This document shows, one piece after another, positions 10,832-15,148 of a DNA stretch of 64,000 nucleotides (positions within the stretch are counted from its first letter, which is position 1; every line of letters begins with the position of its first letter). The position numbers were made by a program, and so were the translations under genes. The notes below the pieces were generated by a model. It saw only the letters and a list, made by a program, of their open reading frames with translations, searched no databases and was not told the origin of the DNA. Source of the DNA: Acidobacteriota bacterium (lineage in GTDB: Bacteria > Acidobacteriota > Terriglobia > Bryobacterales > UBA6623); assembly GCA_016125275.1 (NCBI GenBank), contig WGMB01000003.1, positions 1,777,896-1,841,895 on the forward strand, written 5' to 3'.

Positions 10832-12178
10832 CTAGTGCTCGCGGCGCCGGCGGCGGCGGTTCAAAATGCCGTCCCAGCGCGGATCGCCCTGCCGGCCGTA
10901 GTCCAGCGGCAGCTCCGTCCAGTCCTGCCGCGTGCGCCCGTTCAGGTCGAACGCCAACAGGCCATCCTTGAAGGTCATCTCGCACTCCAGCATCTGCTTG
11001 CCCTTCTGGCGCGCCCCGAAGCTGTCCACAAAGCCGAAGTCGCCGGTGCGCATGCCGAAGACGCCGATGTCGGCGATGGCGCCCACGCTCAGGTGCCCCA
11101 GCTCCTCGCGCTTGATCTCCCGCGCCGGGTTCCAGGTCGACTGCTTCACCACATCGTCCAGGCTCTCGCCCAGCGCCAGGAACTTGCTCATCGTCAGCAA
11201 CTGGCTCTGCATGCCCGAGTTCATCGAACCCGTATGCAGGTCGGTCGAGATTGAGTCCGGCGGGAAGCCCGCCTCCAGGCACTTGGCCGCCACGGCCCAC
11301 TTGAAGCTGCCGCCGCCGTGGCCCACGTCAAAGTACACGCCGCGCTTGCGGCCGGCGAACAGGCCCGGGTTCGGCGTGCCGTCCTCCAGCATCTCCCGGC
11401 GGTTGCCGGCGAAGCAGTGCGTGTAGATGTCTCCCGGACGCAGCTTCTCGCCCAGCAACACCTCGATCGGCCGCTCCGGCAGGTTCGAACCGAAGTCCAC
11501 CATCACCGGTATGCCGCCGGCCAGCTCGCCGGCCTTCACGGCCTCTTCCACCGGATGCCACTCCGGGCCGCTGTAGTGCGCCGTCTTCACGCCCACCACG
11601 ATCTCGGGATACTTCTTGGCCAGCTCCGCGGTGGGCTCGGCCTGCATGTCTTCGAGGACGTTCTCGAACTTGCCGCCGCGCATGCCGTTGCCGACGATGT
11701 TGGCCAGCGCCAGAATGCGCGTCTGCGACCGGTCGATCACCGTCTCTTTGAAGGTGTCGAAATTGCGCCACCCCGCGCAGCCGGCGTCCACCACCGTCGT
11801 CACGCCGACGCGGAAGGTGTAGCCGTCCGGGTAGAGGCTGTTGTCGCCGGCATAGGAGCCGCGCTCGTTGGTGCCCGCGAACACGTGCACGTGAATGTCG
11901 ATCAGGCCCGGCGTGATGTAGAGCCCGGAGCAGTCCACCACCTTGAACCCCTTGCCGGGGTCGATCGATTCGGCGACGGCGGCCACCTTGCCTTGGTGCA
12001 CGGCCACGTCACGCACGGCGCTGATGCCGTTCTTGGGGTCGATCAGGTGGCCGCCCTTGAGCAGCAGGTCGTATTCGGGCTCGCCCTGGGCCCTCCCGGA
12101 ACAGGAGAGCGCGAAGGCGGCTGCGGCGCCGGCGAGGATCTCGCGGCGAGTGAAAATGCGGGGCTTGGGGTCGCTCAT
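10832..12178 (-). CDS. Tat-exported amidohydrolase (deacetylase-family metallohydrolase)
   Basis: A 448-residue amidohydrolase-superfamily protein, close to the 'amidohydrolase/deacetylase family metallohydrolase' group related to dihydroorotase. The N-terminus FTRREILAGAAAAFAL is a Tat signal, so the enzyme is probably exported already folded with its metals. Metal ligands fit H96 and H98 (IDIHVH), K198 as the likely carbamylated lysine (VGVKTAHYSG) and the later THCFAG and STDLHTG motifs. The frame continues upstream without a start-like context; the ATG at 12178 is chosen because the Tat signal begins there. The tail is basic (RRRRRREH). Substrate unknown; hydrolysis of a cyclic amide or N-acyl compound is likely for the family. 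Confidence 0.88.
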   Translation of the reverse strand: MSDPKPRIFTRREILAGAAAAFALSCSGRAQGEPEYDLLLKGGHLIDPKNGISAVRDVAVHQGKVAAVAESIDPGKGFKVVDCSGLYITPGLIDIHVHVFAGTNERGSYAGDNSLYPDGYTFRVGVTTVVDAGCAGWRNFDTFKETVIDRSQTRILALANIVGNGMRGGKFENVLEDMQAEPTAELAKKYPEIVVGVKTAHYSGPEWHPVEEAVKAGELAGGIPVMVDFGSNLPERPIEVLLGEKLRPGDIYTHCFAGNRREMLEDGTPNPGLFAGRKRGVYFDVGHGGGSFKWAVAAKCLEAGFPPDSISTDLHTGSMNSGMQSQLLTMSKFLALGESLDDVVKQSTWNPAREIKREELGHLSVGAIADIGVFGMRTGDFGFVDSFGARQKGKQMLECEMTFKDGLLAFDLNGRTRQDWTELPLDYGRQGDPRWDGILNRRRRRREH

Positions 12179-12248: not shown

Positions 12249-13268
12249 CTATTTCTGCGCGCACGCGGGCGTGAACCCGGCCGGGTCAGCCACCCACAGC
12301 GTCGGCGTGGCCGGTTGACCGTCGCTCCACAGGCCCATGAAGGTCTGCTCCGGCGCGCCGTTGCCGAGCGCCGTCGCGCAATTCCAGCCATACCAGCCGC
12401 ACTGGAAGGCGGCCGTGGAATAGCGGTAGGTCCCGTAGTAGTCCAACGGGTCCACGCCCAGCAGTGGGTTCGGAAACGGTAGAGACAGCGGAAACAGATG
12501 GCCCGCCACCATACCGCCCGGCGTCCGCTCGTCCGACCGGACCACCAGGTAGTCCCGGTTGGCGTCCGGCAAATGCGCTGTCTTTTCCCACAGGATCTTG
12601 GCCCCGCCGTCGCAGACCAACCCGTCGTCATCTCCCACCACCACCAACAGCTTGGTCGACCAATCCATCCATTGCATGGGGTCCGCCGCCACGAAGCCGC
12701 TGGGCTCGAAGGCGACCACCGCCTGCGGACGCGGCATCGTCGATCCCGGCATGTTGGCGCGCCCCGCCAGAATCGCAGCCAACCAAGCCCCCGCGGAATG
12801 TCCAGTCATCGCGGTCAGCGGCCGGCCCAGCCAATCCTTCGCCATCGGGACGTGCCCATCGGACTTCTTGGCAATCCGTCGCAAAGCGTCGCGATAGGAG
12901 TTTTCCGCCTGCTCGGTGAACTTGTCGATCGTGATCAGCCCTTGATCCCAGCGCGCCCAAACGACCGTGTGCCCTTTGCGCACCAGATGCGTGATCCAAC
13001 CCGCGTAGAAAGCTTCCGACGGGACCTGAAAGCCGGGCAGCAGCAACACCACCGGAGCGCTGGCCGGCGTCGGATCGGCAGGCTCGTAGATGTAGTAGTT
13101 GTAGCTCGCGTCGCCGGCGTACTCCGGCGCGATGTATGGCCCCTTGGTCAAGACCGTGGCGTGCCGGTAGTTCAGCCCGCCCGGCCCAATCCAAGGCTGC
13201 CCGGGCGGCAGTTGCGCGGACAACGTCGTCCCGAACAGGGCTAGCAGAGCGAAGAGTCCTGGGCGCAT
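12249..13268 (-). CDS. Secreted alpha/beta hydrolase
   Basis: A 339-residue exported hydrolase with a short Sec signal peptide (about 1-18, ending TLSAQ). The nucleophile elbow is GHSAG with Ser158, preceded by a strand-loop VVLLLPGF that forms the oxyanion region. The downstream GDDDG segment may supply the acid. It resembles chlorophyllase- or dienelactone-hydrolase-like esterases, but I cannot assign a substrate. It lies 70 bp upstream of the amidohydrolase on the same strand, so the two may be co-transcribed. Confidence 0.85.
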   Translation of the reverse strand: MRPGLFALLALFGTTLSAQLPPGQPWIGPGGLNYRHATVLTKGPYIAPEYAGDASYNYYIYEPADPTPASAPVVLLLPGFQVPSEAFYAGWITHLVRKGHTVVWARWDQGLITIDKFTEQAENSYRDALRRIAKKSDGHVPMAKDWLGRPLTAMTGHSAGAWLAAILAGRANMPGSTMPRPQAVVAFEPSGFVAADPMQWMDWSTKLLVVVGDDDGLVCDGGAKILWEKTAHLPDANRDYLVVRSDERTPGGMVAGHLFPLSLPFPNPLLGVDPLDYYGTYRYSTAAFQCGWYGWNCATALGNGAPEQTFMGLWSDGQPATPTLWVADPAGFTPACAQK

Positions 13269-13319: not shown

Positions 13320-14183
13320 CTACGCCGACTCCGGGCTCCAGAACGGCTCGCGCGTCGCCACCAGCCCCACCGGCAGGTCGCCCAAGAACGTCCGCAACCA
13401 CTCGGCGCAATATTTCATGCCGGCCTGCTCGGAGGCCACATGGCCGATCACGATCAGCCCCTTCTTGCGCCCGGCGGCGACCGCGTCCACGGCGTACTCC
13501 ACCGCCTCCCATTCGCGCGACTCCCCGCACAGCAGCACGTCCGTCTCCGAGTCCGCCAGCGCCGCAATGCCGCGTTCCTGGCTCAAATAGCCCCAGTTCG
13601 CCCGCACCCGCCGCACCGGCAGCGCGGCGTCTCCCACCACTCGCACGGTCGACGCCTTCAGCTTCGTCTCCACATGGCGCGCCAGCGCCCCCAACGTCGT
13701 CGCCGGCAGCTCGAACCGCCGCTGGTCCTGCGAATAGGCTTCCCACCCCAGCTCCCGCGTCATCCCGTAGGCGATGCCGTCCGGCCGCCGCCGGTGCCAA
13801 TGGTCGTGGAAGCGAAAGACGACCATGCGGTTGTCCTGCAGAATCTTGACCTTGTCGCGGTAGACGGGATCGTCGCCGAGCTTGTCGGTCGCGTCCTGGT
13901 GTGAGTAGAACGTCGGCTCGTGGGTAATCACGAGGTTCTTGCCCTCGGCCGCCGCCCGCCGCACCACATCGAGCGTAGCCATCATCGTCGTGGCGACGCC
14001 GGTCACAGGCGTCTCGGCCGAGCCGGCAATGATGCGGTCTACGGTCTCCGCGGCCCAAGGCACGCCCACGTTGTCCTTGATGAGGTCTATGACGGCCCCG
14101 GCGGTCAGCTTCGGGGACTGGGACAGGGCCGGAGCCGCCGCCAAAGCCGCCAGGAACATCCGCCGCGTGGAAGAATCGCCCAT
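13320..14183 (-). CDS. Exported Nif3-like dinuclear-metal protein, copy 1
   Basis: A 287-residue member of the Nif3/NGG1p-interacting-factor-3 family (DUF34, GTP cyclohydrolase I type 2-like), whose members bind two metals in a toroidal hexamer. Metal-binding elements are visible as ITHEPTFYSHQD (about residues 86-97) and IGHVASEQ near the C-terminus. Unusually, the chain begins with a Tat-like signal, STRRMFLAALAAAPAL, whereas Nif3 proteins are normally cytoplasmic. It is the downstream member of a tandem duplication with the next gene, and most residues are identical. Function is unproven; the family is often called metal-dependent hydrolase or metal chaperone. Confidence 0.87.
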   Translation of the reverse strand: MGDSSTRRMFLAALAAAPALSQSPKLTAGAVIDLIKDNVGVPWAAETVDRIIAGSAETPVTGVATTMMATLDVVRRAAAEGKNLVITHEPTFYSHQDATDKLGDDPVYRDKVKILQDNRMVVFRFHDHWHRRRPDGIAYGMTRELGWEAYSQDQRRFELPATTLGALARHVETKLKASTVRVVGDAALPVRRVRANWGYLSQERGIAALADSETDVLLCGESREWEAVEYAVDAVAAGRKKGLIVIGHVASEQAGMKYCAEWLRTFLGDLPVGLVATREPFWSPESA

Positions 14184-14210
14184 ACCGCGGCGAATTCTAG
14201 CACGCCCCGC

Positions 14211-15080
14211 CTACGCCGCTCCCGGGCTCCAAAACGGCTCCCGCGTCGCAATGAGCTCCACCGGCATTGCTGGCAGGAACGTCCGCAGCCACTCCGCGCA
14301 ATACTTCATCCCGGCCTGCTCGGAGGCCACATGGCCGATCACGATCAGCCCCTTCTTGCGGCCCGCCGTCGCCTGATCCGCGGCGTACTCCACCGCTTCC
14401 CACTCGCGCGTCTCGCCGCAGACGAACACGTCCACATCAGGATTGGCCAGGATGGGAATCGCCGGGAACTGGCTCGAATAGCCCCAACTAGCGGCCACCC
14501 GCCTCACTTCGAGCTTCGGGTCGCCCACCACCCGCACCGTCGACGCCCCCAGCTTCGCCCGTACGTGCTCGGCCACCGCGCGCAGCGGCGTCGGCGGCAG
14601 CGTGAACCGCCGCTGGTTTTCCGGGTCCACATAGCGCTCCCAGCCGAGCTCCCGCATCATCCCGTAGGCGATGCCGTCCGGCTTACGGCGATGCCAATGG
14701 TCGTGGAAGTGGAACACCACCATGTGGTTATCGTTCAGAAAGGCGAGCTTTTCTTGGTAGAGAGCGTCGTCGTGGAGCTTCTCGACGTCATCCTGGTGCG
14801 AGTAGAAGGTCGGCTCGTGGGTGACGACAAGATTCAAGCCCGCCTTTGAAGCCCGCCGCACCACGTCGTAGGTCGCCATCATCGTGGTGGCGACGCCGGT
14901 CACGGGTGTCTCAGCCAAGCCGGCGATGATCCGGTCGACGGTCTTCTCCGCCCAAGGCACGCCCACGTTGGCCTTGATGAGGTCGATGACAGCGCCGGCC
15001 GTGAGCTTGGGGGACTGGGGCAGGGCCGGAGCCGCCGCCAAGGCTGCCAGGAACATCCGCCGCGTGGAAGAATCGCCCAT
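14211..15080 (-). CDS. Exported Nif3-like dinuclear-metal protein, copy 2
   Basis: A 289-residue paralogue of the neighbouring Nif3-like protein, with the same Tat-like leader (STRRMFLAALAAAPAL), the same THEPTFYSHQD metal motif and the same GHVASEQAG motif. The frame runs upstream for another 100 codons, but the ATG at 15080 is chosen because it matches the start of copy 1 exactly and the bases just before it are also duplicated. The two genes are 27 bp apart and probably form one operon. Their substitutions are scattered over the whole chain, and every metal-ligand motif I can see is kept in both, which suggests both are functional. Confidence 0.87.
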   Translation of the reverse strand: MGDSSTRRMFLAALAAAPALPQSPKLTAGAVIDLIKANVGVPWAEKTVDRIIAGLAETPVTGVATTMMATYDVVRRASKAGLNLVVTHEPTFYSHQDDVEKLHDDALYQEKLAFLNDNHMVVFHFHDHWHRRKPDGIAYGMMRELGWERYVDPENQRRFTLPPTPLRAVAEHVRAKLGASTVRVVGDPKLEVRRVAASWGYSSQFPAIPILANPDVDVFVCGETREWEAVEYAADQATAGRKKGLIVIGHVASEQAGMKYCAEWLRTFLPAMPVELIATREPFWSPGAA

Positions 15081-15148
15081 ACCGCGGCGGATTCTAGCAC
15101 GCCGAGGCGAACGATCCGCGCGACCCGCCCCGGCGGGAGCGTCTTTGA

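Follow-up and report, generated by a model that had tools for sequence, protein, structure and literature searches.

The canonical DUF34/NIF3 proteins, such as YbgI of E. coli (1nmo), SA1388 of S. aureus and HcgD, are described as mainly cytoplasmic. Members of this family form a homohexameric toroid with two metals, which are bound by the residues of the conserved motifs (PMC8469502). According to the main-text sections of the same source, Tat signals are the commonest "fusion" of bacterial DUF34 proteins, and the exported state is therefore not new in itself. These sections describe a DUF34 domain joined to a Tat signal, as found at the locus reported here, with no mention of a pair architecture, of site loss or of switching between Tat and Sec. 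What is new here is the generality of export in one branch of the family and, in relatives of our locus, tandem pairs having one leader and one intact site each. PMC8469502 also lists XynX, from Geobacillus proteiniphilus T-6, as a negative regulator of xynA, a secreted xylanase gene, and not as an enzyme. A literature search found no paper on the XynX structure (9G9U) and none since 2022 that joins XynX and NIF3. The XynX gene presumably lies within a xylan gene cluster.

The locus belongs to a soil bacterium of the Acidobacteriota and was analysed in a window of 64,000 nucleotides, i.e. the whole stretch of DNA under study. It comprises two adjoining DUF34/NIF3 genes on the minus strand, copy B then copy A (Table 1). 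They are indeed the tandem Nif3-like pair proposed by the sequence-only reading, as both ORFs are intact and score above the Pfam cut-off of PF01784 (23.4 bits). In contrast, they reach only 39.9 and 51 bits with TIGR00486, the YbgI/SA1388 equivalog, far under its cut-off of 130.55. The AlphaFold2 model of copy B (pTM 0.88) matches XynX (9g9u) with a Z-score of 33.9 and an rmsd of 1.7 A over 261 residues (36% identity), YbgI with a Z-score of 23.4, ten other NIF3 entries, YbgI, SA1388 and HcgD included, with Z-scores of 21.2–25.5, and 3rxy with 13.4. The sequence match to 9g9u extends over 252 residues, the runner-up having an E-value of 1.3e-5. XynX is the nearest solved structure to the branch of copies A and B; it shares their set of THE, HDxWH and GHxxSE motifs but its solved chain carries no leader. 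The canonical proteins resemble both copies in fold (Z 21–25.5) and in the position of the metal site but use THHP and HxxxD ligands.

THEPTFYSHQD and GHVASEQ, as had been noticed from the sequence, and HDHWH are intact in both copies, all the site residues being kept despite the divergence. The THE and GHVASEQ motifs named at that stage are conserved in both copies but do not represent the canonical set, since THE replaces THH and HxxxH replaces HxxxD. A profile alignment to canonical acidobacterial NIF3 proteins (13 ORFs, several of them with a short stretch replacing motif 1 after trimming) places THEP on THHP, HDHWH on HTNLD and GHVASE on GHFHTE. Relative to canonical NIF3, the second His of motif 1 is thus exchanged for Glu and the Asp of motif 2 for His, and the HxxxE of the last motif is retained. 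We take the metal ligands of YbgI as the guide for calling these residues metal-binding. The idea of two specialised hydrolases found no support: no site residue is lost from either copy, and no feature was seen that would set their roles apart. A canonical NIF3 with a stray leader was rejected because of both the scores far under the TIGR00486 cut-off and the ligand exchange. Three deep relatives (L048, L066 and L081) keep THE and have HxxxD as second motif, a ligand set that reads as intermediate between the canonical and XynX-type ones. More generally, DUF34 is bimodal in Acidobacteriota. Canonical forms (E-value of 2e-43 or lower) occur in 44 of the 72 matching genomes, out of 297 searched, all of them outside the window's class, and the host genome and the 11 other matching members of this class carry only weak, divergent-type matches.

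Table 1. Features of the tandem pair and of the genes downstream of it (positions in the window)
Feature	Position	Strand	Basis
Copy B, exported DUF34/NIF3 protein, 289 aa, transcribed first	14211..15080	-	PF01784, 74.2 bits; 9g9u, E 2.8e-53; AF2 pLDDT 94.8
Tat-type leader, copy B, residues 1-26, STRRMFLAALAAAPAL	15003..15080	-	sequence; relatives
Metal motif 1, copy B, THEPTFYSHQD	14790..14822	-	sequence, profile alignment
Metal motif 2, copy B, HDHWH	14691..14705	-	sequence, profile alignment
Last metal motif, copy B, GHVASE	14319..14336	-	sequence, profile alignment
Duplicated block, 5' part, copy B	15081..15103	-	22/23 bases identical to copy A
Copy A, exported DUF34/NIF3 protein, 287 aa	13320..14183	-	PF01784, 60.9 bits
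Tat-type leader, copy A, residues 1-26	14106..14183	-	sequence; residues 1-20 identical to copy B
Metal motif 1, copy A	13893..13925	-	sequence
Metal motif 2, copy A	13794..13808	-	sequence
Last metal motif, copy A	13428..13445	-	sequence
Duplicated block, 5' part, copy A	14184..14206	-	22/23 bases identical to copy B
Alpha/beta hydrolase, Sec-like leader by eye, 51 nt downstream of copy A	12249..13268	-	PF03959, 23.3 bits (cut-off 21)
Amidohydrolase, Tat-leadered, 70 nt past the alpha/beta hydrolase	10832..12178	-	PF01979

The two proteins are 76% identical overall and fully identical over residues 1–20, and 27 nt separate the stop codon of copy B from the start codon of copy A. The window contains direct repeats of 300 nt with 77–78% identity, 891–897 nt apart. 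Taken in 30-base bins, the identity between the copies is 30/30 at the beginning of the coding sequence and 25/30 (83%) across the 30 bases upstream of the start, then drops to 40% at -60 to -31 and to 30–37% past the stop, the short end bins of the alignment deviating from the flank value of about 40% or less. As identity falls beyond about -23 and past the stop, the duplicated unit extends from about -23 to the stop. The duplication is therefore at DNA level and includes upstream bases, as the sequence-only reading held, the end that it gave, 15102, taking in the upstream part of the repeat. The ratio dN/dS of about 0.29 (dN 0.163, dS 0.569, NG86) indicates that both copies are under purifying selection; in 62 relatives, 64 columns are conserved at 90% or above, and copy A agrees with all of them and copy B with all but one, which shows a conservative change of Ile to Val. 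No DUF34 gene besides these two turned up when the genome (7.55 Mb, 97.6% complete) was searched. The sequence TGCTAGAAT, which resembles an extended -10 box, is retained 10 nt ahead of the ATG in the 5' part of each duplicated block; this placement may suit a near-leaderless transcript, and copies A and B may each have their own promoter. Inspection of the sequence found no obvious Shine-Dalgarno upstream of either copy.

The common Tat-type leader is confirmed: the N-terminus of both copies has STRRMFLAALAAAPAL and fits the consensus S/T-R-R-x-F-L (as given in PMC3383694), followed by a hydrophobic segment. TatC is present in the host genome (PF00902, E 2.0e-59), one of 15 genomes examined, all of which have it. 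Translation beginning at Met9 instead would leave out the RR, and neither copy has a start codon near residue 27, so that a later start there cannot remove the leader. Export of copies A and B is well supported by the leaders of their relatives, and Tat is its probable route.

The search for relatives matched at least 593 stretches, with relatives encoded in at least 557, from which the 80 best loci were taken. With 34 loci from additional genomes and 40 from a survey of the order (matches in 91 of 250 genomes), 154 loci were examined in all. A family ORF was found in 152, L067 and L080 being excluded for having none by profile, and eight duplicate solitary loci were also removed. Among the matches listed, there are 102 distinct solitary genes. 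The strict motif [STN]RRx[FLVIMWA] occurs in 40 of them and a looser RR in 16, whereas 45 have no RR and one is cut at its start; these counts derive from motif counts and a start-site table, and part of the looser class looks Sec-type. Far from uniformly lacking the N-terminal segment, 100 of the 101 readable solitary relatives listed carry an RR or hydrophobic leader, and the further Tat-leadered homologues that had been called for include the 40 of 101 with the strict motif. The view that the family is normally cytoplasmic holds for canonical NIF3 but not for the XynX-type branch. The single leaderless-looking gene (L091, Anaerolineae) was so judged by eye, its hydrophobic stretch lying ahead of the likely start codon; by a hydrophobicity rule, all 102 genes except the start-cut one would have a leader. 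A separate reading of 65 single-gene loci, partly overlapping this set, gave 35 with strict RR, 10 with loose RR and 20 without RR, the latter looking Sec-led by eye, with KR in a Tat-like setting in L214 and with the fusion L347, described below, included in the 20.

Leader type switches within the branch between Tat, Sec and a probable lipobox, and, judged by these leaders, export is the rule there. The occurrence of Sec leaders among the relatives suggests that proteins with a NIF3-type fold need not be folded before they are exported. Two natural fusions were also observed. One (L347:517-1965, plus strand) joins a Sec-leadered 3-keto-disaccharide hydrolase domain to a NIF3 domain, the leader being on the upstream hydrolase, and the other (L076:3939-5831, minus strand) joins an exported NIF3 domain to a serine hydrolase domain of beta-lactamase type (PF00144). 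In Bacteroidota, 66 of 247 genomes gave a match, which was strong (E under 1e-60) in 13, and no tandem pair was found among the matches listed. Three members from this phylum (L115, L142 and L160) look lipoprotein-like by eye, with a Cys after a short hydrophobic leader, and could possibly represent a third export route in the branch. A survey of Alphaproteobacteria gave 2 of 289 genomes, both already in the set.

Our preferred reading, to which we give a probability of about 0.55, is that the pair is a locally duplicated, Tat-exported XynX-type NIF3, whose products would work in the periplasm as dinuclear-metal hydrolases on compounds from the breakdown of plant polymers or carbohydrates. Local duplication of a single exported gene gave rise to copies A and B. 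Both proteins would be made with a Tat leader and would fold in the cytoplasm, probably with uptake of two metals, before passing the Tat pore. In the periplasm, they would form the NIF3 toroid, either as homohexamers or as mixed hexamers, and their most likely activity there would be to hydrolyse a small molecule from plant-polymer or carbohydrate breakdown, beside the two exported hydrolases encoded downstream. The two copies would now serve dosage or slight divergence, and the tandem pairs of the relatives would be further along, with one leader and one intact site each.

Both downstream hydrolases are leadered and lie on the same strand, which, with copies A and B, makes four leadered proteins in a row. 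Around the relatives' loci, neighbours are mixed: among those scanned (93 of 102 upstream and 96 of 103 downstream, picked on GC3, the omissions being mostly near-duplicate loci), each Pfam family occurs in at most 4 of the 93 upstream and at most 4 of the 96 downstream proteins. Outer-membrane beta-barrels, FG-GAP/ASPIC proteins and aldo/keto reductases recur, 3-keto-disaccharide hydrolases account for 2 of the 96 downstream neighbours, and a glucuronyl-esterase-like cluster, one representative of which was Pfam-checked, adjoins 7 of 108 loci, among which two come from near-identical species. No conserved operon pointing to a substrate was found among these neighbours. Because the neighbourhoods are so mixed, the substrate class is a guess, which the xylanase link of XynX and the recurrent neighbours tilt weakly towards plant-polymer breakdown; the L347 fusion and the 3-keto-disaccharide hydrolase neighbours add further weak ties to carbohydrates.

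Amidohydrolases are often metal-dependent, and the one encoded downstream of the pair could be the client in an alternative that we consider rather unlikely, namely a periplasmic metal chaperone or insertase that hands a divalent metal to exported metalloenzymes. Such a role has been proposed for DUF34, with iron, zinc and magnesium seen in structures (PMC8469502). However, a constant client neighbour would then be expected, whereas neighbours vary; furthermore, 45 of the 101 readable solitary relatives among the matches listed have no RR and look Sec-leadered, so that metal pre-loading in the cytoplasm is not general. It is even more doubtful that the exported protein acts as a sensor or regulator, binding a sugar or metal and signalling as reported for XynX. 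This closest solved relative is reported to regulate negatively a secreted xylanase gene, but no regulator family occurs in more than two neighbours of the exported forms and, since the solved XynX chain is leaderless (the alignment begins at its residue 1), XynX probably acts in another compartment. Lastly, a mis-called start, which would leave the leader untranslated and both proteins cytoplasmic, would fit the lack of an obvious upstream Shine-Dalgarno-like sequence but is highly improbable and was rejected, given that the leaders are identical over residues 1–20 in copies only 76% identical overall, that nearly all the relatives read have leaders, of changing type, and that the domain start has no start codon nearby.

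Besides the window pair, at least 40 distinct divergent tandem pairs (adjacent family genes, among the matches listed) were found in 35 genomes, leaving out L232 (the same locus as L147) and L251 (one gene split by a frameshift). Some are incompletely readable: gene 1 is frameshifted in L227 and a fragment with its leader unseen in L243, the active gene is cut by the contig end in L245, L250 and L253, and the pseudo-subunit is cut at its start in L247 and frameshifted in L249. In each of the 33 fully readable pairs among the matches listed (26 of type I and 7 of type II), a single member is leadered and a single member has an intact site. The site-losing member has lost at least two of the six ligand positions; Asp97, replaced by Glu in the intact member of L239, is not counted as a ligand. 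In the 29 type I pairs, all from Acidobacteriota, gene 1 is leadered and has a broken site, with His250 changed to Arg in 29/29, and gene 2 has the intact site. The start codon of gene 2 lies 1–4 residues ahead of the mature domain. In 21 of 28 pairs, gene 2 overlaps the stop of gene 1 by 4 or 1 nt, the spacing being -13 to 0 nt in the 7 others (L227 aside); some of these genes could also start in frame further upstream, at most 17 residues ahead of the domain, by which no hydrophobic leader is gained. In the 11 type II pairs (9 in the window's order and 2 in Alphaproteobacteria), it is the intact gene that has the leader, and its degenerate partner has none. The leadered members with a readable start (39 of 40 pairs) all have RR, strict in 37 and looser in L236 and L096. 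The comparison with the strict RR of solitary genes (40/101) gives a Fisher p of 6e-10, which overstates the case because the pairs are mutually related and were fetched because they were pairs.

In the tree, the active rows of type I form one clade of 28 rows (98) and the pseudo-subunit rows a clade of 25 out of 26 (99), L061 falling outside on a long branch. Distances among active and among pseudo-subunits of type I are correlated (r 0.876, 25 pairs; none of 2000 permutations as high), which could be explained by shared species history alone. The model of the L147 pseudo-subunit (type II) keeps the NIF3 fold (pLDDT 90.3, Z 32.7 to 9g9u), with confidence of 62–66 at residues 71–90, just past the lost first motif, and of 61 at 141–150. 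The tree places the pair types apart. When confined to 103 of the 179 rows (those on long branches, the canonical outgroup, many of the solitary rows and part of type I being omitted), AU tests reject neither one clade for all pseudo-subunits (p 0.118), nor one for those of type II (p 0.103), nor type I active and pseudo-subunits as one clade (p 0.226). As a single origin of pseudo-subunits is left standing, we do not claim three origins or repeated evolution; the presence of the leader on either partner (pseudo-subunit in type I, active one in type II) possibly reflects separate duplications.

We put at even odds that the relatives' pairs are Tat hitchhiker heteromers, i.e. a pseudo-subunit and an active subunit that share one RR leader, assemble in the cytoplasm and cross the membrane jointly, the window pair being at an undivided stage. 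It is established that a folded partner can be transported by Tat and not by Sec (PMC10924467, PMC4273604). Hitchhiking is suggested by this property together with the finding that leaderless genes occur almost only beside an RR-leadered mate; indeed, solitary leaderless members amount to one (L091) of 101 readable solitary genes among the matches listed and none of the 65 read separately. The partner's leader is always of RR type in pairs, even though many members of the branch have Sec leaders. However, the pair types all sit among Tat-leadered relatives, and the Tat leader may therefore be an inheritance and not a need. The leaderless partner might instead be a plain cytoplasmic enzyme that stays in the cytoplasm, against which stands the near confinement of leaderless members to the side of leadered ones, with L091 and the XynX chain as exceptions.

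With its two leaders and two intact sites, the window pair was itself rejected as a hitchhiker pair. It is the only two-leader, two-site tandem of the 41 tandem pairs read among the matches listed, and forms its own clade (99) within a starred set of 33 rows, which includes solitary genes and the alphaproteobacterial pairs. It may represent an earlier stage, that of a more recent, undivided duplication, and perhaps already forms mixed hexamers. The hitchhiking reading of the one-leader, one-site pairs predicts that the two proteins co-purify and that the leaderless partner is exported only with its mate. The exported branch of NIF3 is also easier to handle experimentally, since its substrate, metal and partner are accessible outside the cytoplasm.

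No paired or pseudo-subunit NIF3 was found in print among the top-ranked matches in open-licence PMC, supplements aside. The subunits of the metformin hydrolase MetCaCb are homologous to each other. This enzyme (PMC11271267) provides a precedent for a heterohexameric metal-dependent hydrolase but, unlike the NIF3 pairs, belongs to the ureohydrolase superfamily. The Tat hitchhikers compared here (hydrogenases, formate dehydrogenases and PaoABC) resemble the relatives' pairs in carrying the signal on one partner only; they are redox enzymes, whereas the relatives' pairs, with the window pair outside this comparison, consist of two homologues, one of which has lost its site. If true, the hitchhiking reading would thus extend this mode of transport from redox complexes to a toroid built of a pseudoenzyme and a homologous enzyme.
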